Below, in pieces: positions 24,478-62,043 of a DNA stretch of 64,000 nt. Location: the NCBI RefSeq assembly GCF_007004655.1, contig NZ_ML660091.1:392259-456258 (forward strand). Direction: 5' to 3'. Positions within the stretch are counted from its first letter, which is position 1. Each line of letters starts with the position of its first letter. A program made the translations under genes and the position numbers. The notes beneath the pieces were generated by a model. That model was not told the origin of the DNA and did no database searches. It saw only the letters and a list, made by a program, of their open reading frames with translations. The stretch is from Exilibacterium tricleocarpae. GTDB lineage: Bacteria > Pseudomonadota > Gammaproteobacteria > Pseudomonadales > Cellvibrionaceae.

Positions 24478-27456
24478 TCATCTAATCCAGACTTGATATT
24501 CGTTCCACAAGGTATTGATATCCTGCCCGGTGGTATTGCGAATGGCGCTTTCCCAGGTCCAGTTATTGGGATTGTCGGGATTGGCCTGTTGGTTGAAGTC
24601 ACGGACAAAATTACTGAAACCCGCCTCCTCTTGCAACCACGCCAAAAAGAAACCGGTGGTTTTGTAACCGCTGGTCCAGTGGCCGCCACTGCGCCGTTGC
24701 GACAGCGGCGCGTAGCCGGCTAAATGCCGCACCGTATCGGCCAGGCCCTCGACGGCCGAAGACGCCGCACCGCTGGCGTGCTGGTAGGCGTGGGTCATTT
24801 CGTGATAGAGAATCCCCGTCACTTCGTCCAACACATCGCGATTGGCGCTGCGCAGGCGATCGAGATAGTAGGCGTTGATATTGACAGTGATCCGCGGCGG
24901 CCGCCCCGCTTTCCACGCGATCCCGTCGCGGTTGTTATCCCAGTTCTCGATCCGCAGCTCCAGTTCGGAAAAGTTCGGCACCGCAGCCGGCGTTTCGTAT
25001 AAAAGCGGGCCTACCTCAGCGGCAATCCGATGAATATAGCCGTCCACATCGGGCACCAGTTCCCTGAACAACCGGGCACCGGACGAATTGTCGGGGCGAT
25101 AATCAATCGACGGCTTCAACACGGCTTCCCAACCGGTCGCCGCCGTGCTGATACGGAAAGACGACAAGGTATCATTGAAACCGAGAGTGGTCAGGTTGGT
25201 TATATCGCGGTTGAGACCGTGAACAGTGCCGCCGAAATTGATATGGCGAAACAGCTCGACCCGATAACCGCTTTGCACGCGCACGGAAGAGACCACATCA
25301 TTCCATCCGCTCGGCATGCTGGTGTAGTCCCCCGCGCCGCGACAAAAGCTGGCGCCGCGGTACTGGGAATGTTGATAGAAACAGACAACACCATCGGTTA
25401 TGGTCACTTCTGTAGTGGCGCGCTTGGAGGCACCACTGTCATCCAGCACAGTCAGGGCCACCGTGTAGGTGCCTTTCGTCGTATAGGTATGTTCAGGGTT
25501 GGCGTCGTCGCTGGTGTTACCGTCACCGAAATCCCACTGGTAACTGATAATGCTGCCGTCAGGGTCTGAAGTGCCGGTACTGCGAAAGCGCACGACACTG
25601 TCGACCGTACCGGAGTAAGGACCGTTGACCCGTGCCACCGGTGCCTGGTTTTGACCTTCGGTAACCGGCAGCAGGCGAAATTTCTGGTTACTGTTCCCGT
25701 GGCAGCCCCACTGCAGGATGTTGGCTCCATCGCCCGTTCTGGCTCCCTCCACATCGACACACTTGCCGCTGCCCACATTTTGCAGCGCAACAATATTGTT
25801 GCCGTAGTCGATAATACCGAAGCGTCTGCCGGTGGAACCGTCACAGGATTGCTGTTCGATATTTTGTCCGTCACTGCGATCGCCACTGCCGGGCCTGACC
25901 GCCAGGCATTGACTACTGTGTCGCGCCTGCAGGTCAATCTGGTTGTTGCCGCGGTCGCGCAGCTCCCACTGTTGGTTTTCGCCTTGATTGCAGTCCCATT
26001 GCACAATATTGCCACCACGGCTGGGGCTTCTGTCGGCAACATCGAGACATTTCCCGGAATGCAACGCCTGCAGTGCGAAGGTGCCGGTGACCACCGGACC
26101 GACGCCATTGCGAAAGCCCGCCATTATCGGTGCCGTAATGTTTAACACGCGATGGTTATCGTGCCAGGCCGCGGTGCCGCGGGGCGCGCCGCGAAACGTT
26201 TTGCCCGGGTGCGACCAGAAGTTGCGGCGCCGGCAGCAACCCTGGATATTGTAAGACATCACCGTGCGCCAGCCGCCACTGCGATTGGCATAGCCGTGAC
26301 CGAAGGGATAGGGAGAGCGGCTCGAGTCCTGTTCCGGATTGTGGCGTGCCCCCTGCAAGTGACCGATTTCATGGGCAAAAGTGTAGTTACCTGTCGCGCA
26401 GTTTTTCGCCACTATGGCATAGGCGGAGTTGACATTGGAGCCGATCCCCCGGGCGATGCCGCAGTAGCCGCCGCCATTGGTAATCAGTATCGCCACATCG
26501 GCGCTGCGCTGTTCGAGCAGGCTGTGCACCTCGTCCATATAACCGTCGCGGCGACCCGCAAATCGACTTAAATCGGTGCGCATATCGCCGGACTCCCGGT
26601 AGTTGACCTGCGCCATATGGGCCAGTCGTACACGGGCGTTGATATCACTGTCGGCGTAACCGGCATTGGTTTCGGCGATGGCCAGATCGATAGTACCGGC
26701 GATATTGTTGCGGACCGCCGGCGTATAGACCACCAGCAAATCGATTACCGCGGTGTCGGCCCGGGGATCGGCCGCGGCGGTAACGGCCAGTTGCTCGAGC
26801 ATCTGTTCGTCGACCAGAGAGGTATCGCCGTCAACGGCGGGCGGGTGATCTTCGGGTAAGGCATCAGGATTAATTTCCTTGATAACGTGCGCGCCATCGG
26901 CCAGCGGTTCGACCTTAAACAACCTGTCGGCATAGTGAATGGTCGCGGTGATTTCATTGCCGCGGCGAACGATGATAACTGAGTCCGCAACGGATTCTGT
27001 GTTGGATGCCGAGGGCTTTTTCAGACTACCCGCTGAAGGTTTCCCCACATTGCTTACTGAAGGCTTTCTCACATTACTTGCCGAGGACTCTCCACCACCG
27101 GCAGCGGTCATTTTGCCCTGGCCGGCGGCTATACTGCCGCGCCACACCACTGCCCCGGTACCGCTGGCATAAGCGTTTCGACGCACAGCCCGCAGGTCTA
27201 TACCCCCGTCGAGGTTCAACAGGATACTGCCCTGCTCCTCACTCACTAAAGCAGCGTTCACGGTTCTTAAAACCTGATGATCAACTTCCCGATCCTCAAC
27301 TGTTCTACTCAGGGCCACCGCAGCAGTTGACTGCAGTTTATCGGGCAACGGGGAAAACAGCGGTTGATCAACGTCCGCAGCCGCGGCACTGCCCGACACC
27401 AGGAGCCCGCAGAAAACAATGGCTGTAGCGACGGGTGAAAAAAATGGTTGGCGCAT
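24478..27456 (-). CDS. Secreted multidomain metalloprotease with ricin-B, PKD, crystallin and BSP domains
   Basis: A protein of about 992 residues from the ATG at 27456, chosen for a strong GGGAGGA upstream and a following signal peptide (ending GSAAAADVDQ). Order of parts: prodomain with a short KPSxSN repeat; zinc metallopeptidase with HEIGHLQGARH at 362-372 (HExxHxxGxxH type); ricin-type carbohydrate-binding repeats (QQW motifs, about 465-605); PKD domain (about 605-690, SYQWDFGDGN); beta/gamma-crystallin motifs (about 700-785); and a basic-secretory-protein-like end with a second zinc motif HEMTH. It is probably secreted and digests protein in carbohydrate-rich material. Two identical palindromes flank its promoter region. 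Confidence 0.85.
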   Translation of the reverse strand: MRQPFFSPVATAIVFCGLLVSGSAAAADVDQPLFSPLPDKLQSTAAVALSRTVEDREVDHQVLRTVNAALVSEEQGSILLNLDGGIDLRAVRRNAYASGTGAVVWRGSIAAGQGKMTAAGGGESSASNVRKPSVSNVGKPSAGSLKKPSASNTESVADSVIIVRRGNEITATIHYADRLFKVEPLADGAHVIKEINPDALPEDHPPAVDGDTSLVDEQMLEQLAVTAAADPRADTAVIDLLVVYTPAVRNNIAGTIDLAIAETNAGYADSDINARVRLAHMAQVNYRESGDMRTDLSRFAGRRDGYMDEVHSLLEQRSADVAILITNGGGYCGIARGIGSNVNSAYAIVAKNCATGNYTFAHEIGHLQGARHNPEQDSSRSPYPFGHGYANRSGGWRTVMSYNIQGCCRRRNFWSHPGKTFRGAPRGTAAWHDNHRVLNITAPIMAGFRNGVGPVVTGTFALQALHSGKCLDVADRSPSRGGNIVQWDCNQGENQQWELRDRGNNQIDLQARHSSQCLAVRPGSGDRSDGQNIEQQSCDGSTGRRFGIIDYGNNIVALQNVGSGKCVDVEGARTGDGANILQWGCHGNSNQKFRLLPVTEGQNQAPVARVNGPYSGTVDSVVRFRSTGTSDPDGSIISYQWDFGDGNTSDDANPEHTYTTKGTYTVALTVLDDSGASKRATTEVTITDGVVCFYQHSQYRGASFCRGAGDYTSMPSGWNDVVSSVRVQSGYRVELFRHINFGGTVHGLNRDITNLTTLGFNDTLSSFRISTAATGWEAVLKPSIDYRPDNSSGARLFRELVPDVDGYIHRIAAEVGPLLYETPAAVPNFSELELRIENWDNNRDGIAWKAGRPPRITVNINAYYLDRLRSANRDVLDEVTGILYHEMTHAYQHASGAASSAVEGLADTVRHLAGYAPLSQRRSGGHWTSGYKTTGFFLAWLQEEAGFSNFVRDFNQQANPDNPNNWTWESAIRNTTGQDINTLWNEYQVWIR

Positions 27457-27498
27457 GAAGTATCCTCCCATGGCGGGATTGATTTTGGACCCCTTTTT

Positions 27499-27510
27499 GA
27501 CAACGTTGTC
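27499..27510. promoter_or_regulatory. Operator-like palindrome GACAACGTTGTC, promoter-proximal copy
   Basis: A perfect 12-bp palindrome 43 bp upstream of the metalloprotease start, with a second copy at 27594. A CpG-centred palindrome of this kind resembles sites bound by LacI-family repressors of carbohydrate genes in gammaproteobacteria. The regulator is not identified. Confidence 0.65.
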
Positions 27511-27593
27511 GCTGGCAAGGTTGAGCAATAGACACGCCATCTAGGGTAATTTATAAAATTTCTTCTAGATTTTTAGGTTAGACAAACCAAAAA

Positions 27594-27785: not shown

Positions 27786-29393
27786 TTACACCGCAAACCG
27801 CACCGCAACCTCATCGCTATCCGCGAGATTGCGATGGACGAGATCGGCCAGGGATGTGGTCTTTTCAATCAACTGCAGGCCATAATCTGAAAAGGTGTGG
27901 GCGTTGTAAACATTCTGTGACAGTAAGGGGTTGGTATAGATTTGCGTAAACGCATCATAGGCGACCATGGCGTTGAGCAGATCACCGAACAACCCCTCCC
28001 CCACACTCCCCTGCGCGAACATTCCGACGATAAACTCCACTTGGTTAACATCGTTATAAAGGCCCTTTAACGCGTCGATTAATTGCGCGTCATCGGTCAA
28101 CTCATCAAACCGGGACAGGGGTTTGAAACCAAACTGCCGCCGGTAGTCGTTATAGGGACGCAGCCTGAAGTCCCGCCCCATCCTTACCGTCGCATACTCG
28201 GCCCCCAACATAAACTCGGGAACGTTCTGCAGCGAGATGGCACCGGCGGCCTGGACGGAAGCCGCCTGAATAACACTGCCGAGCCCGGCGGCTTCAAACA
28301 GCGCGTTGTTTACCCGGTACTGCAGATGATCGTAGTTTCGCCCGCCTATTACTATCTGGTCGGGAATCAAACCGTGCCAGCGATACAGCAGATCAAACTC
28401 CAGGGCGATCCAGGGCGTTCGGTACCACGCCTGTCGTTCGGCAAAAGTGTGGTCCAGTTTGAACAGCCTGAGCCCGGCAATATGGTTTATATACTCTTCG
28501 ATGACCAGTTTCATCAGAATAACGGTATTGATCATTCGCGCGGTCTGAAAAAGTCGTTCATCGTCCCAGGCAGGATATCTGTTATGCAACTCGTCGCATA
28601 TTCTGTTATGTTCGCGCAAAAACAACGTGCTGATAGCCACATAACCAATCGAGGAATTGCCCCGGTCGAGCCCGGTGGCATAGAGCTTGTGCTTGCGGTC
28701 CTGCGGCCAGGCGCCAAAAATTTGCGCCAGTCTCTCATCGCTCGTGTAAGGAAGCACCCGGTAGTGTTCCTTGACCTGCCAGTGGCCACCGGCGTCGACG
28801 GTGCCCAGATAGTCCGGGTATTCCGCGCCATCGATGTGTTGACTGCGCAGCTTGCCGCCGCGTTTTGAGCGCAGGGCATTTGCGGCGGTCTCTGTCAGCC
28901 CATAAATTTGACAGAGATCGATATTGTGGTTAGAGGTATTTTTGCGGCGGTCACCGGGGTCGACTCTAAGCACGCTGTCGGTAAACCATTGGGCGAAAAA
29001 CATAAACAACAACGAGGAACGACTGGGCTTCATCGAGCCCTCTCTGCGGAACAAGGCGGTAACGGCACCGGTTGCTCCCGTGTCGGGATTGTATGGCCGG
29101 TCCTCGGGCAATTGGGTGGTATAACCCGGATCAGCCGGAGGCAAATGTCTGGCAAAATAAAGGCGATTGGTCAACATCGGCCAGGTGGTGTAGTCGCCGA
29201 CAGCCCCCTGTTCTTCGTAACCGGTCGGGGTCGGGGTGCTGCCGCGCGGCATGGGCTGGTGCGACCACAGACTAAATGCCCTGGGGCGGGGTTTGATGAT
29301 AGTGCATATGCGGTTGGTAGCGTACCGGTTTAAGAACGTGTTGGTGTAAGGGATTTTACTGACAATATTAAAGATCCTATTGACGATTCCCAT
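27786..29393 (-). CDS. Cyclooxygenase-like heme peroxidase/dioxygenase
   Basis: A 535-residue animal-peroxidase-superfamily protein, closest by eye to prostaglandin-endoperoxide synthases and fatty-acid dioxygenases. FFAQWFTD (132-139) aligns with FFAQHFTH of animal cyclooxygenase, NIDLCQIYG (157-165) and GKLRSQHIDGAEYP follow in the same order, and YRWH at 337-340 gives the catalytic Tyr337 and proximal heme ligand His340. The distal peroxidase His appears replaced by Asp139 while the neighbouring Gln135 is kept. It probably oxygenates a fatty acid. No signal peptide is seen; an N-terminal hydrophobic stretch may bind membrane. It is a single gene with no obvious terminator before the palindrome region. 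Confidence 0.85.
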   Translation of the reverse strand: MGIVNRIFNIVSKIPYTNTFLNRYATNRICTIIKPRPRAFSLWSHQPMPRGSTPTPTGYEEQGAVGDYTTWPMLTNRLYFARHLPPADPGYTTQLPEDRPYNPDTGATGAVTALFRREGSMKPSRSSLLFMFFAQWFTDSVLRVDPGDRRKNTSNHNIDLCQIYGLTETAANALRSKRGGKLRSQHIDGAEYPDYLGTVDAGGHWQVKEHYRVLPYTSDERLAQIFGAWPQDRKHKLYATGLDRGNSSIGYVAISTLFLREHNRICDELHNRYPAWDDERLFQTARMINTVILMKLVIEEYINHIAGLRLFKLDHTFAERQAWYRTPWIALEFDLLYRWHGLIPDQIVIGGRNYDHLQYRVNNALFEAAGLGSVIQAASVQAAGAISLQNVPEFMLGAEYATVRMGRDFRLRPYNDYRRQFGFKPLSRFDELTDDAQLIDALKGLYNDVNQVEFIVGMFAQGSVGEGLFGDLLNAMVAYDAFTQIYTNPLLSQNVYNAHTFSDYGLQLIEKTTSLADLVHRNLADSDEVAVRFAV

Positions 29394-29962
29394 TGATTTT
29401 CCCCTGTCGTCAAAGTGGTGGAAAACACCACATATCCGTTAACCGATTGCCACGATAGGCCGATAGATACGGTATAGGCAAGTGCCGGTTTCGCAAAAAA
29501 ACAATGCAAAACCGGCCAACAATGAAAAATGCCGTTTTTAGTACTGAGGGAAAAAAAGAGGCCTGCGTATTATTCTAAATCGACCTTATAGTGGCTGCTA
29601 AAATACAGTGGCTGCTGAAGCCTGGCGAAGTCACCGTCTAATCGGGAGCAAGCGGGCTTTGGCGGGGTTGCGACAGTCATCACATGACGACTATAAGTAT
29701 CATTTTTTAAATATCAGTTTAACTATAACTAACCTTTTTATATATTATTTAAAATCCATAAAAACGATAACTCACATGGAATAGTATTACTTATCTCTGT
29801 CAGGATGACAGGCTTATAGCACAAATAATATGCATATAAATTAAAAGACGAAATAAGCATCCCGGTTAGTCCGACAAGTACTCACCAATACCGGCAGTTC
29901 TCTCCGCTTTCACGGTGACTGTGGGCGAGATTCGTCTAATTTTATACGTTCAAGGAGCCACC
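29394..29962. other. AT-rich intergenic region
   Basis: About 570 bp between the divergent peroxidase and TIR genes, much more AT-rich than either gene. It should hold both promoters. A tandem TAACTATAACTAAC lies near 29713. No gene, RNA or terminator was recognised. Confidence 0.4.
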
Positions 29963-31987
29963 ATGACCCGAGGTCAGCGTGACAGAACAGTTTCTGTTTT
30001 AACGACTGTCAAACTGCAAGCCCTGTTGGATTCCGGGCTAAACCCCACCCTTCGCAATCGACGGGCGCTGGCCGACTCCATGACTGCCGGTGGCGATAAG
30101 ATCAGTGTGCACGGCGTGGAAGGTTGGTTTAAGCACGTAGACTCCAACTATGCACTGGCACGCGAGTCGCTCCATCCGGAGCTAAAGTCCTATCCTGTGC
30201 CGAGACGGCGCTGGAGCGCCATCCTGAATTTGTTTCCCGTCGATGCCGACGATTTGAGACTATCGGACCAAGCCTTCAAAGACATGTGCTTCGAGCGCCT
30301 GAAAACATCCGTTCCCGCCGCGACCACGGACACACCCGATCCGGACAGCGACTACCCGCCACTGGTATTCGTCATCTACGCTATGCGCGATGGAGAAAAC
30401 CTCTATGAGGAGCTGCTCTGGCTGCGGGGCAGAGGCCTGAATCTCTGGTGGGACACCAGCCTCGCGGAAGACCCGCTATGGTCAAATACCGTAGCCACGG
30501 TCATCGAACGGGCCTGCGTGTGTTTGTTGTACCAGTCGGCGGCATTGATCAGCTCCACCCGTTGCCAGCGGGAACTGGAACTGGCCTGTCACCTCGGCAA
30601 AACCATTGTCGTATCACGCAACCCCGACACCACCGCGACACCGGCGCTGGCCCAGTTACTGGAGCAGCAGCCGTCACTGGTACGGCGGGAACACAACAGC
30701 CACTACTTGGACGAACTGGAGACAAACATTCGTGCTCACCTGGCAGCGGGCGATAGGGCCTCCGCCGGTCCTCCCCCCCTGGCCGCGCCAATGCCCGACC
30801 AACCTTCGATTGTGGTGTTGCCGCTAACCAACCTGACAGGACATCGGGAAGTGAATTACGTGGCCCAGGGTATCACCGAAGACATCATCACTTTACTGTC
30901 GCGTGTGCCGGAGCTTTTTGTTATCTCGCGCACGGCAAGCAATGCCTACGCCGGTACACTGACCGATCACCGCACGATTCGTGAACGACTGGGAGTGCGC
31001 TTTGCGCTGGAAGGCAGTGTCCGCCGCTGCGGCGCAAAGTTGCGGGTGACGGCCATGCTCACAGACCTGGTCAATGAGCAACAGCTCTGGGCAGACAAGT
31101 TCGAGGGCGAGTTTGACAAAATCTGGGATGTACAGGACGAGATCACCACCTGTATCTGCGCCCGGCTGCAGCCCAGAATCGTCATGACATCCCTCGACTA
31201 TGGCTCGCGAACGGATAATTACGCCACTTGGCGATACTGGCAGCTGGGGTGGTACAAGTTGTTCGTAGACCCGCCGATACCGGCGCTGAGAGAGGCGCTG
31301 GATTGCTTCCACAAAGCATTGGAACACGAGCCGGATTACGCCCTCGCCCATGCCGGTATTGCCAACGCCATGGGCACGGGTATGTTGTGGGGCGGCATCG
31401 GCCCCGAGGACTACCCCACTGCAAAAGCCCATGCCGAAACCGCTTACCGTCTTCTGCCCGACAACCCGGCGGTATTGTACTCCATGGGTATGGTCGCTTT
31501 TATTGCGCCCAAACCGCTGACGGTAGCTCGCGACTGGGTCCGGCAGGCGGTGGATTTGGAACCGAGTAATGCCGCCTATGTGGCGGCATTGGGTTACCTT
31601 ACGGCCCAGGTTGGCGAGGCAGACAAAGGGCTTGAAATCTGCGAGTATGCAGCGCGCCTCGCGCCGGGCGACAGGCGTCAGCCCTTTATTAACTATATGC
31701 TCAGCGCCACCCAGGTGGCGGCAGGCCGTTTTGAAGCCGCCGTGCAAACCATGCTGCTGAGCGACCGCCTGACCAGCGTGGATTTCGTCTGGATCATAAT
31801 AGGCTTTGCCTGGTTCAAACTGCATCGAATCGATAAGGTCGAGGAGGCTATTGCAAAATGCATTGCCCTCGGTGCCCGACCGCTATCGCTCTATCACTAT
31901 TCTGTTACCTCGCGGCTCTGGCCACAGTACGGCATTGAGGAAAAGGAAGCGTATCTAAAAATCTGTGCGCAAATGGGTATTCGATAA
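29963..31987 (+). CDS. TIR domain, TolB-like domain and TPR protein
   Basis: A 674-residue protein starting at ATG 29963, with AAGGAG upstream; an in-frame GTG at 29915 is less likely. Residues 1-115 are a helical domain of unknown type. Residues 131-225 resemble a TIR domain: VFVIYAMRDGENLYEEL, then WWDTSLAEDPLW, then CQRELELACHLGKTIVV, with Glu204 as the probable catalytic acid. Residues 280-400 match the FlgO/TolB-like domain of adenylate-cyclase and CadC-type proteins (IVVLPLTNLTG, FALEGSVRR). TPR helices fill about 420-674. TIR domains often act in NAD cleavage or signalling in immunity. No membrane helix is seen. It is convergent with the FAD gene, two bases apart. Confidence 0.8.
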   Translation: MTRGQRDRTVSVLTTVKLQALLDSGLNPTLRNRRALADSMTAGGDKISVHGVEGWFKHVDSNYALARESLHPELKSYPVPRRRWSAILNLFPVDADDLRLSDQAFKDMCFERLKTSVPAATTDTPDPDSDYPPLVFVIYAMRDGENLYEELLWLRGRGLNLWWDTSLAEDPLWSNTVATVIERACVCLLYQSAALISSTRCQRELELACHLGKTIVVSRNPDTTATPALAQLLEQQPSLVRREHNSHYLDELETNIRAHLAAGDRASAGPPPLAAPMPDQPSIVVLPLTNLTGHREVNYVAQGITEDIITLLSRVPELFVISRTASNAYAGTLTDHRTIRERLGVRFALEGSVRRCGAKLRVTAMLTDLVNEQQLWADKFEGEFDKIWDVQDEITTCICARLQPRIVMTSLDYGSRTDNYATWRYWQLGWYKLFVDPPIPALREALDCFHKALEHEPDYALAHAGIANAMGTGMLWGGIGPEDYPTAKAHAETAYRLLPDNPAVLYSMGMVAFIAPKPLTVARDWVRQAVDLEPSNAAYVAALGYLTAQVGEADKGLEICEYAARLAPGDRRQPFINYMLSATQVAAGRFEAAVQTMLLSDRLTSVDFVWIIIGFAWFKLHRIDKVEEAIAKCIALGARPLSLYHYSVTSRLWPQYGIEEKEAYLKICAQMGIR

Positions 31988-31989
31988 AC

Positions 31990-33507
31990 TCACATACCAT
32001 CGAGCAGTTCGGGCAGGCGATACTTCATAAAGGTCATTATTCTGCCCGGCCCCACCTGCTCGGAGCGTAACCTCATCAACTGCTCTTCCGGTATTGCCAC
32101 CGGCGGCAGAATAACCACCGGTTTTACGTGAGGCGCATAGCGTTGGCGAATCGCCTCGGCGGCGTTCATCCCTGAACGCACCGCACCTTCCATAGACGTG
32201 ATGTCCGTATCGTTTTGGACAAAATCCCCGGCGAAGTAAAACTGCTCGCCCTGGGTCTGCGGCCGCAGCTCCCAAGTGCCTACATCATTGACGAACAACG
32301 GCTGATCGGCATTCGGGTGCGGCACCAGAAACGCCATCTCCGACGCCCTGGCGGCGGGCAGGTACTCCCGAATTTCACGCACCAGCGCATGCATAAAACC
32401 AACCTCCGACAGGCCCTGCAGGCGCCTGCAGTTTCCCGCCACAAACTGTAAGACCGTGCCGGGATATCCGCTCAGGCTGTCCCAGTGCTGGGAGATATCA
32501 AAAGCGGAGAGACTGTAGGTGGAGCCCAGCAGATCAAAGTGATCCTGCGGCACTTTCGGCAGTTTATGCTTGAAATAGATATCGATAGCGCCAAATTGAT
32601 GGGCGCGCAGATAACTGAGATTGGCAAGCGCCGGTTCGGCTGCAAACAAGGTGTCACTTTGCAGGCTGCGCAGTACCTCCAGCGGCACGGCAAGCACCAC
32701 CGGGCCGCGATCAATAATCCGTGTGCTGCCTTTGTTATCGGTAATCTCGATCGCCATCGGTGCATCTTCGGCAGTGATTTTCGTCAGCCGATGGTGATAA
32801 TGCAATTGAAACTGCAGCCCCTTTTCTTCAGCCCGGCGGCGGATAGTGCTCTCCATCGGAGCAATCAGTATCTCATCCAGACTACCCTTGAGCGCCGCCC
32901 AGTTTTTTTCCTTAAGTACGGGGTACCACTGGCAAAAGAGATTGCGCACTACCCTGGAGCTGATATCGTACTCCTCGATGGACAGTGCGTTGAGAAACAG
33001 TGCCCTGAGACTGACCGACTCCAGGCCGTTGTAACAGCGCGAATACAGAAAGCCGCGGAAACTGAGATCGTTGACCTCTGCATCTGTACGGGTAACCAGG
33101 TCCATCACACTGAACGCTTCGCGTTCTTGTCTCGGGCGCGGTGGCTTAAAATCGTAACCGGTCCCTCGCGACAACTGGTAGTAATCCCCACCCTCAAACA
33201 CCTGTTGCGGCGTGATCCCCACCCGCGTCCACAATCGGCGCATATTGACATACCAACGCGGGAAAACGTGGTAACCGTGATCCGAGGGTATGCTGTTTGC
33301 TATCTGATCATAGACCGGTTGCATTGCGCCGTCGTAAACGCGCCCGTCGCGGATGCTGCCCGCCTTGCCGCCGAGATGATCACTCGCCTCGTAGAGCGTC
33401 ACAGAAAAGCCGCATTCGATTAACTCCAGCGCAGCTGTCAGACCTGCCAGGCCGCCGCCAACAACGGTGACGGCCGGTACATTGGTATTGGTATCTTGGG
33501 TCGACAT
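31990..33507 (-). CDS. FAD-dependent amine oxidase/desaturase-like oxidoreductase
   Basis: A 505-residue flavoprotein. The N-terminal Rossmann motif VVGGGLAGLTAALELIECGF binds FAD, followed by LYEASDHLGGKAGS. The C-terminal FAD-contact region is near TSMEGAVRSGMNAAEAI. These are features of the amine-oxidase/phytoene-desaturase/hydroxysqualene-dehydroxylase superfamily, and the substrate is not clear. No signal peptide is visible. It lies three bases after the protease/hydrolase fusion, so they are almost certainly one operon. Confidence 0.85.
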   Translation of the reverse strand: MSTQDTNTNVPAVTVVGGGLAGLTAALELIECGFSVTLYEASDHLGGKAGSIRDGRVYDGAMQPVYDQIANSIPSDHGYHVFPRWYVNMRRLWTRVGITPQQVFEGGDYYQLSRGTGYDFKPPRPRQEREAFSVMDLVTRTDAEVNDLSFRGFLYSRCYNGLESVSLRALFLNALSIEEYDISSRVVRNLFCQWYPVLKEKNWAALKGSLDEILIAPMESTIRRRAEEKGLQFQLHYHHRLTKITAEDAPMAIEITDNKGSTRIIDRGPVVLAVPLEVLRSLQSDTLFAAEPALANLSYLRAHQFGAIDIYFKHKLPKVPQDHFDLLGSTYSLSAFDISQHWDSLSGYPGTVLQFVAGNCRRLQGLSEVGFMHALVREIREYLPAARASEMAFLVPHPNADQPLFVNDVGTWELRPQTQGEQFYFAGDFVQNDTDITSMEGAVRSGMNAAEAIRQRYAPHVKPVVILPPVAIPEEQLMRLRSEQVGPGRIMTFMKYRLPELLDGM

Positions 33508-33510
33508 TAT

Positions 33511-35346
33511 TTAATAGTCCAATATTTCTCGAGTAAAATGCACCGCCGGGAGATGACAGCAACCCAACATGCGCATCAGTATGTTGTTCATGGTGGCGGG
33601 ATCATTATCAAAACCGCTGTGGGTTTCACTGTGCGTCAGGGGCTCAGCCCCGCCTGAACCTTCACTGTAGATAAACTCCAATTCGGAACCGTGTAAGGCG
33701 GTGCTGTATTTTTCCATACCCAAAAGCGCCGTGTTTCCGCTTGCCTCAAAAGCGGTGGAGACCAGATAAAGCAGTGATTTCCGATAGACGCCGGCGACGC
33801 TGTCATCTCGCTCCAGTCTGTCGCTGAGGTTATAGACCGTCATATCATCGATACCGAAGGTTGCGCGGCCAGTCCCGAGCAATGGCCTGTAGTACTGATG
33901 AAAATCCGCCACCGTACAGGCGGGGGCCATTAGCGAACAAGTGGCGATGCGTCGCGACGCCGGCCCCGCGCCCAGCCGCTCGAGGAGATAGGCCAGCAAC
34001 AGCGCGCCGGCGCTGTGCCCGACCAGGTGTATCTTCCAGTCGCCCTGGAGCAAATCCACGATGGCTTGCAGGACCTGAGTGCCGGCGCCGCCAGCCGTAA
34101 AGCCTTTGGCGGCCCCCCGCTTTATCTCCCGCCATATCGCCCGGCCCGGTACCCGGACCGACCGCGCCACAACACCGTCCCAGATGTCGTCAAACCCGGT
34201 TACCCGGTTTGGGTCGGCGCTTCTGCGCAGCACCAGGTCCTTTATCTCTTCCAGCAACCCGGTGTCGTACATAAAATGGAACGGATAGATACCGTTTTTC
34301 TTGTAGATATCCTTCATCGCCACGATACGTCGGGCGGATGCCTTGGTGCTGTTGAGTCCGCCGTGCGCATAGAGCAGCAGGTGTCGGTAGCGGTCCTGCC
34401 CCCTCAAGTACTGCGCCGTTTCCTGCACATCGGTGAGCTCGCTGAAGTAAGGCCCGGTCGGGTGAAATTCGCCATCATCAAGGTGAACAAAGTGCCCGGC
34501 GATATCGCTGCGGCGGACTTTGCGGCGACCAAACTGCACCGGGCGGCCGTCATCAACCGCAGAGTGAGCATCGGCATGAAAACGCGGTGTCGGCACCGTA
34601 AACCGCACCACCCAGGCATCGATCACATGGGTCTGCCAGTCGTCATAGCGCCACAGGGCCAGCCCGGCTTTAGCCCAGCGTTTACCCCATGAGTTCTGGA
34701 CCCAGAAGCCTTCCTGGTTGTAACCCACAATGGCGAAAGCGTGGCCTCCCGCAGCGGTGACGGCGTATGGAATCGCACCTGTTTCTGCGTCCGGCTCATA
34801 CCAACCGGCATGGACTCGCGCCGACACATAGATGGCTCCCGCCTCGTTGATGGCGGCGTGATAATCGGCCAACCGCGGTCGCAGGCGATAGTAGGCCCCG
34901 GGTTTGTTGAACCGCGCCGAAACGGCGCGGCTGCGGGTCAGGTCGCCGGGGCGATTCTCCTCATAGGGCCACTCCCGATCGGTACAGACCCCCATATTCT
35001 GCCAGCCGCGAATAGCGCCGCGACAGCTGGAGCCGGCGTATTCATCACCGGGCCATTCATCAAATTTACGGGCCATTTCGTAGAGCATACGCGCACTTAC
35101 CGGACCCCTGGGGGCGGCGCCAATATCGCGCCGGCGCCGCACATCCAGCAGATTGAGCACGGCCGCCAGGGCAAAACCGGTGCAGGCACCTTCACCGCCC
35201 TGATCCAGTATTTGAATACCCGTCGGTGCCGGCCAGGCGTCCCTGACTGCGATAAGCGCGGGCTGGTAAACAAGATCACGAATATCATAGGTATCGGCCA
35301 CCGCGTTTAACAGATGCCCGGTGGGTGTAACATAGCGATTTTCCAT
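33511..35346 (-). CDS. Papain-like (C1) protease fused to alpha/beta hydrolase
   Basis: A protein of 611 residues from the ATG at 35346 (MENRYVTPTG), preferred because GAGGGG lies six bases upstream; an in-frame start at 35460 would add 38 residues. The N-terminal part is a C1-type cysteine peptidase: oxyanion Gln49 and Cys55 in DQGGEGACTGFA, His in GGHAFAIVGY and Asn in VQNSWG. The C-terminal part has an alpha/beta-hydrolase nucleophile elbow GHSAG in KIHLVGHSAGALLLAYLLE. No signal peptide is seen. It is transcribed with the FAD gene and divergent from the lipoprotein operon that also encodes a C1 protease. Confidence 0.85.
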   Translation of the reverse strand: MENRYVTPTGHLLNAVADTYDIRDLVYQPALIAVRDAWPAPTGIQILDQGGEGACTGFALAAVLNLLDVRRRRDIGAAPRGPVSARMLYEMARKFDEWPGDEYAGSSCRGAIRGWQNMGVCTDREWPYEENRPGDLTRSRAVSARFNKPGAYYRLRPRLADYHAAINEAGAIYVSARVHAGWYEPDAETGAIPYAVTAAGGHAFAIVGYNQEGFWVQNSWGKRWAKAGLALWRYDDWQTHVIDAWVVRFTVPTPRFHADAHSAVDDGRPVQFGRRKVRRSDIAGHFVHLDDGEFHPTGPYFSELTDVQETAQYLRGQDRYRHLLLYAHGGLNSTKASARRIVAMKDIYKKNGIYPFHFMYDTGLLEEIKDLVLRRSADPNRVTGFDDIWDGVVARSVRVPGRAIWREIKRGAAKGFTAGGAGTQVLQAIVDLLQGDWKIHLVGHSAGALLLAYLLERLGAGPASRRIATCSLMAPACTVADFHQYYRPLLGTGRATFGIDDMTVYNLSDRLERDDSVAGVYRKSLLYLVSTAFEASGNTALLGMEKYSTALHGSELEFIYSEGSGGAEPLTHSETHSGFDNDPATMNNILMRMLGCCHLPAVHFTREILDY

Positions 35347-35428
35347 TCCCAGCCCCTCGAAGCCTGTCCGTTTGTTTTCAGCTCGATATCCGATCATAAC
35401 CACTGTGCAGGGAAAAGCATCCGCTCCA

Positions 35429-35487
35429 TAACTACGTTTAACTACGGCCCGCCCACCCACGGACGCCCCTAACTACGTTTAACTACG
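35429..35487. promoter_or_regulatory. Four TAACTACG direct repeats between divergent operons
   Basis: TAACTACGTTTAACTACG occurs twice, at 35429-35446 and 35470-35487. The octamer TAACTACG starts at 35429, 35439, 35470 and 35480, with spacings of 10, 31 and 10 bp, and 41 bp between the 18-mers. Ten-bp spacing places sites on one face of the helix. Lying between the two divergent operons, it looks like a shared binding array for a response-regulator-type protein. Confidence 0.65.
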
Positions 35488-35565
35488 ACGGCCTTGTCCA
35501 GTGCCTCGGGCGATCGGATACTGACCTCACACCCGCCGAAAACAACGATACCAAGGGGAATGCCG

Positions 35566-38019
35566 ATGATTAAGCATTGCGATAGTGCCTCGAGATGGGT
35601 CGGCCTACTGGCCGGTTTGACGCTGACAGCCTGCACCACGGTGTCGCAGACCGATATCAGTTACGCCGAAGCGCTGCTGGCGGAGTGGGGAACTGCCACC
35701 GCTTCCTCACCGATATTGAGCAGGAAAAAGGATCACTATAAATTTAATCTGAAGAAAGATGCCGACAGCTTTTATGCCACCGCAAAATCTGAAATCAACG
35801 CCGGTATTGCGCGGCACACCCAACGGGTAACCTCGGTACTGCTGGCCGGGTCAACCCAGGCCAACTCGGTAAGCAAGGGTCTGTTCGATGCGCAAAAACA
35901 AAAGTTCTCTGCAGTCCAGACCGCGGCACTGAGCGACAACGAGAAAAGTCGTATAGACAATGAACAGAAATTTCTTATGGAGCAGGCCAGGCTAAATTAT
36001 GGAATCTGCCTGAACGCAGCCGACAGTGAACTGGCGATTGCCGCCACCCTGCAAGACACCGATAAGATAAGTGCCTTAAACTCGCAAGCGCTGGCCCGGC
36101 GCAATGGATGTTTCAGCGAGTATTTGAACCGGATCGCCCCGCAAAGCCCGGCTGCCGATACCCTCCACCCCGGTCTGCCCGAGGATAACGTACCGGCGTT
36201 GAGCCGTATCCAATCACTGCCGTTTCAAGCAAAAGAGGCCTTACTTACCCCCTACTCCACCAATGACATAAGCGGCTTGAGCGGCTCCCCGGCCCTCCCC
36301 GACCACGAGGCGATTGCACAGGCAGCAACCAATAACTTTCACAAAGCCATGTTTACCACCCTGGGTGGTGAGAATGTGGGGAATGCGCTTTTTGGGGTGG
36401 CAATGGTCTCTGTCAATCCGGGGTGGCGTACCCGGCAAAACTATAAAGCCGTTGTCAATATTCAACCCCAATTGATATACAAAAGGGCAACCCGGAAAAC
36501 AACACTAAACTACCTGAAAGACTCAACGGTTCCGGCAGAACTGCGAGCAGCCATTGCCTATCAGGTCGGTGAAGGTTGTGAGGAAAAAAATCTAGCACCA
36601 CTTTGTAAAAATCACGAGGCATTGCTCCACAGCCTAAAAACCAACTGGCAACATGACAGCCATGCTGATGTAGTCAGCAACCCATCGGCAGTAACGGTGA
36701 CGGCTATATCACCGGTTTCTTACGGGCAGACACTGGATCTGAAAAATCGGCAGTTGACGCAACTGCATCTAACGACAATGTTGGCGGCGGCGTTGCAGAA
36801 CGCCGGTCTGGAAAAAGCCGCTGAGTTCTATGTGGATTTCTCCAAACAACAACGCCTGGACTTTGCTTCCCGCAATAAACGCAACAACGTCAACGTTTTT
36901 TCCCATGGTAATTCAGTGATTGGCATCGAAGTAGGGCCTGAATTCCTCGCCGCCGCCGCGGGGCGAGAAGGCTCCGCCTGGCGCCTGCAACGCCAGACAA
37001 TACCGGTTTTATTGGCTATAGATATAGTCGACGAGAAGGATGACCATTATCGACCTATTTTTGTAAAGTCCTGCAAGCCGCACGATGATCTAGAGCACTA
37101 TTGTCTCTTGGAGCCGAAATTGCAGTTCGTCAATACCCACAGGTGGTTGCCAATAGATAAGAACCGTTTCAATATACCGTTTCTGCCGGAACGAAAACTG
37201 CTGTCAACAAAGCAGCTAACCGACGTACAAAAAACGCTACGTAATGCTTGCGGAGAAGAACCGAAAGACACAGGCCGGCAAAACAATCAATTTTTACAGG
37301 CCAGATGCAATGAGCTACGGGCCAAACTGCTTGGCCACTACAACTATTCCAGCCTGCCAATTTTGGCTCAAGCGAAACCCAAGCCCGCTATTCAACACAT
37401 TTATCCCGACAAAGTCACCCTTGCGGTTGCAGACGGAAAAGTAAAGCCGAAGCAAGTCCGCTTTATTGTATCCGGAAGCGACCTGAGAACTTTAGCCGCT
37501 GGTGACAATACGGATATCACCGGCCAGATAGCCCCCTACTTCGACGGCCAGGCTGTCGAGGCGGCAGCCCTGGTCGGCGACAGTATCGTAATAGATATGC
37601 GGATTACCGACAATAAAGGGCCGGTTATGTTCAAGATAGGCTACGAAGGCGGCTCCATAAATTCCGGCACATCACCCGCAACCCTGGCTCAGGTACTGAC
37701 GAAAGTATCAAGCCAGGGACCGAATGAAGTGCAGTATGTGATCAAGTCCGACGCCATAGGTGCCGAACTCACGTTACCGCCCGGCCAACGGGATTTGCCT
37801 GAGCAGGTTGGCAAACTGCTGCAAACGATCCACACGCCGCCAAATCCCGCTACCGGGGTAGTCGCTTTGCCCGGTACCTGCGCCTACCTCGTTACCCAAA
37901 AACCAAACCTGGTGACTCAGCTCGGCGACTGTACGGCCGGCACAGATGAGAGAGCCCCGGAGTACCTGTCGCCAATCCATTCAGAGTCAGCCAAGACTGA
38001 TCTCGTTACTCAGGAGTAA
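35566..38019 (+). CDS. Large hypothetical lipoprotein
   Basis: A protein of 817 residues from the ATG at 35566, which has AGGGG seven bases upstream (an ATG at 35560 is too close to it). A type II signal peptide ends at Cys23 in the lipobox LTAC, so it should be a membrane-anchored lipoprotein facing periplasm or surface. The remainder is soluble and mixed alpha/beta, with a helix-rich part to about residue 220. No family is recognised. It lies five bases before a C1-protease gene on the same strand, so the two are very probably co-expressed, and it could be substrate, partner or envelope anchor of that protease. Confidence 0.7.
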   Translation: MIKHCDSASRWVGLLAGLTLTACTTVSQTDISYAEALLAEWGTATASSPILSRKKDHYKFNLKKDADSFYATAKSEINAGIARHTQRVTSVLLAGSTQANSVSKGLFDAQKQKFSAVQTAALSDNEKSRIDNEQKFLMEQARLNYGICLNAADSELAIAATLQDTDKISALNSQALARRNGCFSEYLNRIAPQSPAADTLHPGLPEDNVPALSRIQSLPFQAKEALLTPYSTNDISGLSGSPALPDHEAIAQAATNNFHKAMFTTLGGENVGNALFGVAMVSVNPGWRTRQNYKAVVNIQPQLIYKRATRKTTLNYLKDSTVPAELRAAIAYQVGEGCEEKNLAPLCKNHEALLHSLKTNWQHDSHADVVSNPSAVTVTAISPVSYGQTLDLKNRQLTQLHLTTMLAAALQNAGLEKAAEFYVDFSKQQRLDFASRNKRNNVNVFSHGNSVIGIEVGPEFLAAAAGREGSAWRLQRQTIPVLLAIDIVDEKDDHYRPIFVKSCKPHDDLEHYCLLEPKLQFVNTHRWLPIDKNRFNIPFLPERKLLSTKQLTDVQKTLRNACGEEPKDTGRQNNQFLQARCNELRAKLLGHYNYSSLPILAQAKPKPAIQHIYPDKVTLAVADGKVKPKQVRFIVSGSDLRTLAAGDNTDITGQIAPYFDGQAVEAAALVGDSIVIDMRITDNKGPVMFKIGYEGGSINSGTSPATLAQVLTKVSSQGPNEVQYVIKSDAIGAELTLPPGQRDLPEQVGKLLQTIHTPPNPATGVVALPGTCAYLVTQKPNLVTQLGDCTAGTDERAPEYLSPIHSESAKTDLVTQE

Positions 38020-38024
38020 CAACC

Positions 38025-38993
38025 ATGAAAAACACTACCTGCGATCAAAAGCCACCCACTCCATCGCAACGGCGGAGACGACATTCCAACCCTTATGGTC
38101 GTCGAACAGGCGGCGGGACTTTCCGGTTGGGCTGTTTAAAAGATCTACCGGATAGACGCGATATTTCAGTGGCACGAGTCAACAAGGATAATAATCTGAC
38201 CCACACTATCCAGGCTCTTTCGGAAAAAATAACATCCGCCAAAGAATCCTTTTTACTTTCGCCGGAAGAAGCATCGCTACCCGCTAGCTGTGAGTTAGCC
38301 CACGTCCTGTTTACAGAAATAGAAGACCAACGAACGCTGGGAAGCTGTACAGCCAATGCCGTTATCAGCCTGATCGAGTACCTGATCAAATCAGCTAGTA
38401 GCAGGAATACGGATCTTTCCCGCATTTTTCTGTATAAAGTCACAAGAAACCTGATGGGTGAGAGAGGCCTCGGGGACAGCGGTGCTTTTATTCGCGATAC
38501 GATTAAGGCGATGAAAATTTTTGGCGCTCCGCCGGAGAGGTGGTGGCCTTACGATACCGAGAATTTTGACGATGAACCGGATGCGTTCATTTATACCATG
38601 GCCCAAAACTTCCAGTCTATAGACTACCTGCGCCTTGACGCCCCAGGCGTCAACGGCGGCGAAGAAACGCTTAAAAACGTTAAGTGTTGTATCGCAGACG
38701 GTTTTCCGGCTGCGTTTGGTTTTTGGGTAACAGAGGCTGTTTTCGAAGCTGGCGTGGGGACTGGCGTCATACACCTACCGGACGATTCCACAGCGATCAG
38801 CGGCGGACACGCCGTGTTGGCCGTTGGCTACGACGATGCAAAAAAGGCGATAAAAATCCGCAACTCCTGGGGCACCAGTTGGGGCGACAACGGCTATGGA
38901 TGGCTCTCGTACGACTACGTGTTGGAAGGTATGGCTTTCGATTTCTGGACCATTTTCAGCCAGGAATGGGTGGATACACAGACTTTCGCCTGA
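38025..38993 (+). CDS. C1 papain-like cysteine peptidase
   Basis: A 322-residue protease. Gln102 and Cys108 lie in EDQRTLGSCTANA. The His motif is GGHAVLAVGYDD and the Asn motif is RNSWGTSWGDNGYGW. The first 90 residues are a basic, glycine- and arginine-rich stretch that could be a propeptide. No signal peptide is apparent. It lies five bases after the lipoprotein gene and is the second papain-like protease in this region, the other being the fusion at 33511-35346. Confidence 0.87.
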   Translation: MKNTTCDQKPPTPSQRRRRHSNPYGRRTGGGTFRLGCLKDLPDRRDISVARVNKDNNLTHTIQALSEKITSAKESFLLSPEEASLPASCELAHVLFTEIEDQRTLGSCTANAVISLIEYLIKSASSRNTDLSRIFLYKVTRNLMGERGLGDSGAFIRDTIKAMKIFGAPPERWWPYDTENFDDEPDAFIYTMAQNFQSIDYLRLDAPGVNGGEETLKNVKCCIADGFPAAFGFWVTEAVFEAGVGTGVIHLPDDSTAISGGHAVLAVGYDDAKKAIKIRNSWGTSWGDNGYGWLSYDYVLEGMAFDFWTIFSQEWVDTQTFA

Positions 38994-39157
38994 CCTGCTC
39001 CGAAAGCGAATCAACGTTTACCAACAGGATCGCGCTTAGCCGATCGCCGCTTGCGGAGCGATCAAAAAGCCGCCGATAGATAACTGCGGGGCGCATCATA
39101 CAGGGAGAACTTTTTAATAACGTTATTGCGAAGACGCAAATATAGGGAGAATCGACA

Positions 39158-39622
39158 ATGCCAGTCACTATCGATGAAAATATTCAAAATATGATTTCGC
39201 ATCATTTGTCATTGATAAAAACCCAGATCGAAAATCGGTCGTTGGAGTTGGCCTCGAAAGAAACGAAAGAAACGGAAGAAACGGAGAAAAGCGCGGTGAT
39301 GCCCCGGCACGCGTTTCAATCAATTAATGAGTATGCCCCCGGAAGACCTATTACGGAAGAAGACCCCGAATCGAAGGTTACCGCCTTTTTTCGTATGCTT
39401 TTTACTTCGACGCTTGGGGTTTCCGCGATACTGGCCGTCGTTTTCGGGATATTTGGCCTGGTTGGCTTCGGTGGCGTAGAACAGGGACACCCCGAACTCG
39501 TGGAGTTAGTTGAGCAACAAAGGGCGGCCTTTATCGACATTGCCAAGATCTTTGCAGGTGCCGTGGTAGGTGCCGCCGGCGCCAACGCCCTCACCTCCCA
39601 TGGCAGAGTAGCCTCCAGTTAG
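39158..39622 (+). CDS. Small membrane protein, hypothetical
   Basis: A 154-residue protein. The first 75 residues are hydrophilic, with an acidic low-complexity run (KETKETEETEKS). Two hydrophobic segments follow, about 86-112 (FFRMLFTSTLGVSAILAVVF...) and about 128-148 (IAKIFAGAVVGAAGA). AGGGAG upstream supports the ATG at 39158. No family is recognised. It is 164 bp after the C1 protease on the same strand and may belong to the same unit. Confidence 0.65.
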   Translation: MPVTIDENIQNMISHHLSLIKTQIENRSLELASKETKETEETEKSAVMPRHAFQSINEYAPGRPITEEDPESKVTAFFRMLFTSTLGVSAILAVVFGIFGLVGFGGVEQGHPELVELVEQQRAAFIDIAKIFAGAVVGAAGANALTSHGRVASS

Positions 39623-61095: not shown

Positions 61096-62043
61096 ATGGG
61101 CAATGTTGGCGGCAATCGAAATTATGGCTACGGCAAACAACTGGCCTGGGCCGGGAAAAACGCCCTGGCGGATCGTTATGGCCACGGGCATTTTGCAACC
61201 CGTGCAACGCATGAGCAACGGTGGTGCCAGTTTGTCCGCTATTTAAAAGGACTCAATATCAGGGATGCCCGGCAAATCGATCAAAGTACAGTACGACAAT
61301 ATGACCTATGGCTCAAAGCACAGGTTAATAGCGGTCAGGTCCGGGTTGCCTATGCGCAGAATTTGCTATCGACGGTCAATGTCGTCTTGCAGGCTATGCG
61401 TAAAGATACCGTCCTTTTACTGTCCCCCACCGTCGTCGGCGCACGTTGCAATGTCCGTTCTACCGTCCCCGCCAGTTATGACAGGACGGTATTAGCGTCC
61501 CCTATTGCAATCCTCGACAATAAGGGGGAACAGCGGGTCGCGTTAATCGCCGCACTGGCCCGCGATGTCGGTCTGCGCTTCAGGGAAGCCTCGCTACTCA
61601 ACTGCCAGCAGGCGGTTAAGCAGGCAAATCGCCTCGGGCGCATTAACATCACGCAGGGCACCAAGGGCGGGCGCGGCAAGGGTGTGGATCGTTGGGTGCC
61701 GGTCAATGCGGATACGCTGCATACCCTGAAAGCCGCTGCTGATCTGCAAGGTAAAGCCAGTAATCTTGTCCCCGCAAACCTTACCTATGCACAATGGCGA
61801 GACCATGCCAACAGCCAGTGGCGCAACATCCCCAAGGCTGTCCCGATCAAGGGCTTTCACGATATGCGCGCTGCCTATGCCTGTGAACGCTATCAGGTGA
61901 TTACCGGCTTTCCCGCGCCGGTCATTGCCGGTGAGCGCTTAGCGCCCAAAGCATCCGATACCGATGCCAGAGCCATCATTGCCCAAGAGCTGGGACACAA
62001 TCGTCTGGATGTGGTCGCGTCGTATATCGGTAGTGCCAAATAA
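61096..62043 (+). CDS. Tyrosine recombinase (integrase domain protein)
   Basis: A 315-residue integrase of the atypical integrase-domain class (PF12835-like). The SAM-like N-terminal DNA-binding part (about 20-110) precedes the catalytic part: Arg in RDVGLRFREASLL, HxxR in KGFHDMRAAYA, His and Tyr in ELGHNRLDVVASYIG. All tyrosine-recombinase residues seem present. It sits within the AT-rich element and could mobilise it or a smaller unit. The next gene starts one base after its stop. Confidence 0.85.
   Translation: MGNVGGNRNYGYGKQLAWAGKNALADRYGHGHFATRATHEQRWCQFVRYLKGLNIRDARQIDQSTVRQYDLWLKAQVNSGQVRVAYAQNLLSTVNVVLQAMRKDTVLLLSPTVVGARCNVRSTVPASYDRTVLASPIAILDNKGEQRVALIAALARDVGLRFREASLLNCQQAVKQANRLGRINITQGTKGGRGKGVDRWVPVNADTLHTLKAAADLQGKASNLVPANLTYAQWRDHANSQWRNIPKAVPIKGFHDMRAAYACERYQVITGFPAPVIAGERLAPKASDTDARAIIAQELGHNRLDVVASYIGSAK

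Follow-up and report, generated by a model that had tools for sequence, protein, structure and literature searches.

We report on seven neighbouring genes (Table 1) in a stretch of 64,000 nucleotides from Exilibacterium tricleocarpae, hereafter the window, which covers contig positions 392259-456258 and reaches the contig end in a genome of 7.18 megabases (Mb). One of these genes, PRX, encodes what is likely a fatty-acid dioxygenase of the 10S-dioxygenase type, as predicted from its modelled fold and active-site residues. A second, FUS, encodes a papain-type protease joined to a predicted lipase, and the two products may form a short lipid-oxidation route within an accessory cluster, a reading that we put forward tentatively and with a little less than even confidence. 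The other five genes (TIR, FAD, LIP, C1b and MEM) are regarded as neighbours that have no link to PRX and FUS.

The structure model of PRX has a cyclooxygenase fold in which the catalytic Tyr, the central Tyr and the proximal haem His are all kept. Its motifs are FTDS (residues 137-140), Tyr301, LLYRWH (335-340) and DAFTQ (480-484). Tyr337 and His340 were conserved in 120 of 120 sequences, and Tyr301 was invariant in two further alignments. PRX departs from animal cyclooxygenase (prostaglandin G/H synthase) at two positions, with Asp139 sitting where the distal His207 is expected and Ala481 replacing Ser530. The linoleate 10S-dioxygenase of Nostoc punctiforme was reportedly the subject of a study by Brash et al. 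in 2014. The available part of PMC13049297 identifies this enzyme as B2J5P4 and prints its distal F-t-d-s-F motif. Compared with that description, and without alignment of the Nostoc protein itself, PRX shares the cyclooxygenase fold, the three haem-site and catalytic residues named above, the F-T-D-S distal site and the D-A-F-x-Q terminal motif, and is of nearly the same size (535 versus 542 amino acids (aa)). Both motifs are present with one departure each: Val instead of Phe follows FTDS, and Ala478 stands at the G position of G-x-D-A-F-x-Q.

This enzyme pattern occurs in alpha- and gammaproteobacteria, and 3,673 relatives of PRX were counted. Within the order, close relatives are encoded by 3 of 292 other genomes, with four copies between them; one of 302 genomes of the class, where a contig end cuts the locus, and one of 199 genomes of the phylum also have one, these samples overlapping in part. 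None of the four close loci in the order has PRX adjoining FUS, FAD, LIP or TIR. Elsewhere in the genome that contains the window there is another An_peroxidase-like match, a distant one (29% identity, C31:41613-42614), and one PRX relative (L121:8978-10543, genome G080) carries Ser at the position expected for the proximal haem His.

Fifteen bacterial loci with a whole PRX gene were compared (the window; L118-L121; L172; L153, L154, L156 and L159-L164), leaving out the partial locus L152 and three further P. yeei records. A P450 gene adjoins PRX in four of them (genome G287, S. medicae, Rhizobium gallicum and Rhizobium etli), and a gene for a catalase-related protein does so in four others (M. 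currus, P. yeei and two Ruegeria). Between R. gallicum and G287 the P450 proteins share 32% identity (8e-72). The Ruegeria protein beside PRX matches the catalase-related protein of P. yeei (1e-35). As described in the available part of PMC13049297, the cyanobacterial 10S-dioxygenase, the studied bacterial case in the literature consulted, has as its partner a catalase-related hydroperoxide lyase encoded by a gene of its own, with adjacency not stated there. Set against this Nostoc system, so far as that text covers it, a partner of the same type adjoins the PRX relatives of M. currus, P. yeei and the two Ruegeria but not PRX of the window, P450 takes the partner's place in the rhizobial loci and G287, and FUS lies nearby in the window and in the two Rhizobium. 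The replacement of the catalase-related partner by P450, together with the nearness of FUS, distinguishes these loci as a variant within the known kind. Fungal dioxygenase-P450 fusions of the linoleate diol synthase family, also covered in the available part of PMC13049297, offer a second comparison: the rhizobial and G287 loci likewise couple a cyclooxygenase-like dioxygenase with a P450, but as separate neighbouring genes, and the window has no P450. The literature matches listed, which are no proof of absence, did not describe FUS, a cyclooxygenase relative in phages or a bacterial pairing of dioxygenase and P450 genes. A neighbour of PRX in the window encodes the TIR-TPR protein, and a guanylate cyclase-AAA protein is encoded near PRX in three loci (L118:4672-7782; L163:10510-13533; L164:9333-12335).

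Relatives of PRX are also encoded on nine uncultured viral contigs (IMG/VR, L173-L181; 51-54% identity), with the active-site residues retained in the 8 viral copies checked. One of them (L178:7971-9659) has a head maturation protease gene and a major head gene on one side and minor tail and tape-measure genes on the other. A search of 50,697 phage records (1e-10) came back empty, and the L178 copy matched no PHROG family. A cargo role in phages for a cyclooxygenase relative may merit separate study.

FUS belongs to a large family: of 7,996 candidates scored, 5,450 reached E <= 0.001. Its start most likely lies at 35346, giving a protein whose length of 611 aa matches that of its homologues, rather than in the 649-aa frame that opens with GTG. 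The N-terminal half matches the xylellain-type protease 3ois over the catalytic domain (2e-24), and both FUS and C1b resemble this type of papain protease, to which FUS adds a predicted alpha/beta hydrolase. Cys55, His202, Asn218, Ser445 and His576 were conserved in all 119 homologues listed; across 11 more divergent copies the Cys-His-Asn set was intact in every one, and the sole failure was Ser445, once. Multidomain prokaryotic C1A proteins are named, without detailed analysis, in the available part of PMC10380794. Among 96 related genomes FUS had one strong and two weak relatives. An IMG/VR contig encodes a further relative (L184:6001-7890, 35% identity), and near FUS in R. leguminosarum there is another protease-lipase fusion, in which a caspase domain is joined to a GDSL-lipase-like domain (L157:3189-5099).

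The linkage of FUS and PRX was assessed in 90 other FUS loci, comprising the best 80 of 313 genome loci, a locus from a genome of the same family (L006) and 9 of 20 plasmid records; with stop-to-stop frames FUS was found again in 88 of 88 loci. The 80 genome loci had pointed to FUS and PRX never being linked, a conclusion that the plasmid records overturned. Among 72,556 such records PRX was present in 12 (E <= 1e-30) and FUS in 20 (E <= 1e-20), 11 of the FUS matches spanning more than 80% of its length. Two records held both genes, compared with 0.003 expected under naive independence, an expectation that ignores the shared preference of the two genes for large alphaproteobacterial plasmids. 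These records, from R. etli and R. gallicum, are the two of the 90 loci that contain PRX, and the genes lie within about 1.3 kilobases (kb) of each other on both plasmids. A DUF1353 gene separates them in R. etli, and R. gallicum has the order FUS-P450-PRX on one strand with a second FUS behind. Together with the window, FUS is thus found within a few kb of PRX in three of the 15 PRX loci.

Several observations weigh against a joint route. PRX is missing from 88 of the 90 other FUS loci, including all 80 that are most similar to FUS of the window, and FUS is missing from 12 of the 15 PRX loci. Of the 80 genome loci, 41 extend 5 kb or more in both directions and 54 extend 2.5 kb or more, so the absence of neighbours is firm for only about half of them. 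The two Rhizobium cases may go back to one event, and identity of their FUS and PRX to those of the window reaches only about 35-40%, so that in the window the arrangement either arose again independently or is due to chance. In Pfam the alpha/beta-hydrolase part of FUS scores only E 0.053, and its support comes from the conserved GHSxG serine (Ser445) and late His576. The window matched neither the P450 nor the catalase-related gene (a catalase-related partner elsewhere in the genome was not sought), and genome-wide matches to the P450 of G287 were weak only (8.1e-8). Since the review cited above does not state that the two genes have to be neighbours, the missing catalase-related gene counts only against a tandem arrangement in the window. 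Overall, a real FUS-PRX link is thinly supported, and we place its chance slightly short of even.

The seven genes may instead have separate origins and have come together in a variable chromosomal region as a plain accessory set. PRX would then be a 10S-dioxygenase-type enzyme on its own, close to FUS by coincidence; we regard this as a serious possibility, held at just under an even chance. A genome of the same genus is collinear with the window from 8.0 to 24.3 kb (73-80% identity over the main pieces), its contig runs on for 12.8 kb past the collinear block without a match to the window, and it has scattered matches only to the window at 39.6-59 kb. Because this synteny ends just before the seven genes, they lie in a variable stretch, which also holds an integrase-like gene (61096-62043). 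Coincidence is favoured by the variability of the window beyond 24.3 kb, by the genes occurring separately in relatives and by the many FUS loci that lack PRX, whereas the two shared plasmid records and the short distances on them argue against it. To the left of PRX, at 24478-27540, a 1020-aa protein has reprolysin-type metallopeptidase, ricin-type lectin, PKD, crystallin-like and BSP peptidase matches.

Also unfavourable to a lipid-oxidation route is the commonest neighbour of FUS: in 13 of 77 loci the gene directly downstream, in the same orientation, encodes a GH108 muramidase. In addition, FUS adjoins an amidase gene in R. etli and a peptidoglycan-binding protein in S. fredii. These neighbours point to an envelope role, in which FUS and C1b would be envelope or lysis enzymes, FUS would act with peptidoglycan hydrolases in cell breakage or cargo release, and PRX would be irrelevant. 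Such a role agrees with the available part of PMC7159879, which mentions conflict operons whose lysozyme and papain-like effectors target peptidoglycan, but no peptidoglycan hydrolase family was detected among the ten proteins scanned at 24.5-43 kb of the window, and we consider it improbable. The GH108 muramidase behind FUS carries a PG_binding_3 domain (for example L017:5911-6480).

Under the lipid-oxidation reading, the hydrolase half of FUS would free a fatty acid from membrane lipid and the papain half would cleave protein. Via a tyrosyl radical, PRX would introduce O2 into an unsaturated C18 fatty acid and, because the distal His is gone, would probably reduce the resulting hydroperoxide poorly. 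The hydroperoxide could then pass to another haem enzyme in loci that encode one; as no partner gene adjoins PRX in the window, the product may leave there as the hydroperoxide. By analogy, FUS and PRX could belong to a bacterial lipase-dioxygenase-P450 cascade, in which P450 or the catalase-related enzyme would yield a signal or toxic oxylipin. This would have the same build as animal phospholipase A2, cyclooxygenase and prostacyclin/thromboxane synthase, although the version in the window lacks the third step, and we think the cascade unlikely.

Table 1. The seven genes in window coordinates (columns: gene; predicted product; position; strand; matches and features). Pfam family names are An_peroxidase for PRX and Peptidase_C1 for FUS and C1b.
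PRX	cyclooxygenase-like haem protein, 535 aa	27786..29393	-	PF03098 1.3e-49
TIR	TIR-TPR protein, 690 aa	29915..31987	+	weak TIR_2 match, residues 151-245; C-terminal part TPR-type
FAD	amine-oxidase or desaturase-type flavoprotein	31990..33507	-	PF01593 (Amino_oxidase) 2.5e-28
FUS	xylellain-type papain protease + predicted alpha/beta hydrolase, 611 aa	33511..35346	-	PF00112 1.8e-6
LIP	rare large putative lipoprotein, 817 aa	35566..38019	+	lipobox-like LTAC; no Pfam family
C1b	single-domain xylellain-type papain protease	38025..38993	+	PF00112 1.9e-13; 3ois 3.5e-34 (over catalytic domain)
MEM	small putative membrane protein, 154 aa	39158..39622	+	membrane nature from sequence; sub-threshold PT-VENN E 0.041

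A sequence-only reading of this DNA had described the seven genes as neighbours, with 3 bases between FAD and FUS and 5 bases between LIP and C1b; all seven are present and both gaps are exact. Strand and spacing suggest four transcription units, namely PRX, TIR, FUS-FAD and LIP-C1b with or without MEM. The domain calls of that reading were right overall, with reservations: the TIR match (23.9 bits versus a cut-off of 28) and the TPR matches fall below the cut-off, and the Pfam scan gave no TolB family that would back that name. Its proposal that the genes form one conserved system did not hold up, as FAD and LIP occur in 0 of the 90 other FUS loci, MEM is in none of the 80 genome FUS loci nor in the plasmid FUS loci, PRX is as rare as described above, and no other genome searched had all seven side by side. 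PRX itself is related to a described enzyme.

TIR domains and proteases are found in bacterial conflict systems. This background favours an undescribed seven-gene conflict or anti-phage system, in which TIR would be the trigger and the proteases, hydrolase and oxygenase the effectors, as do one rhizobial FUS near trypsin-like and caspase genes and another that adjoins a caspase gene. Pairs of caspase and alpha/beta hydrolase described in the available part of PMC7159879 point the same way. Against it, the gene set never co-occurs in the loci examined, and PADLOC gave nothing specific (six of the seven proteins went unmatched, and FAD had one FAD-family match and two weak ones). No conflict-system marker appeared, and the ten scanned proteins included no MoxR, vWA, STAND or GTPase family. 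We therefore rejected the seven-gene defence system, which we consider highly improbable.

The five remaining genes were traced individually. Relatives of TIR occur in 11 of 96 other genomes (1e-20), matching only from about residue 261, behind the TIR domain, and a TPR-type relative is present in two of the 90 other FUS loci, neither of them R. etli or R. gallicum. FAD scored below the NCBIfam cut-off for the hydroxysqualene dehydroxylase HpnE (107 bits versus 283.05). It had no relatives in 243 other genomes of the order (1e-40), and searches of plasmids (1e-30) and viral contigs led nowhere; a conserved FUS-FAD operon was likewise discarded on the locus counts above. NAD(P)/FAD genes are annotated close to PRX in Acaryochloris and close to FUS in Eleftheria, and blastp with FAD of the window did not match them (E <= 0.01). 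LIP most likely starts at 35566, which yields the lipobox-like LTAC. No relative of LIP was found in 292 other genomes of the order, 368 genomes of the class, plasmids or viral contigs, and seven were found among candidates scored from 5.8 billion proteins. Its structure model is poor (predicted local distance difference test score 58), with no Foldseek match at E <= 0.001. C1b had two relatives among the 96 genomes, both weak.

The PRX pattern stands beside two different haem enzymes that could take up its hydroperoxide and, three times, near a lipase-like fusion, which makes the route testable in ordinary hosts. The arrangement would bear on the origin of the pairing of cyclooxygenase and P450 in animals and fungi and on whether oxylipins are produced by root-nodule bacteria, and it gives a hint that bacteria may have a counterpart to the prostaglandin route of animals.
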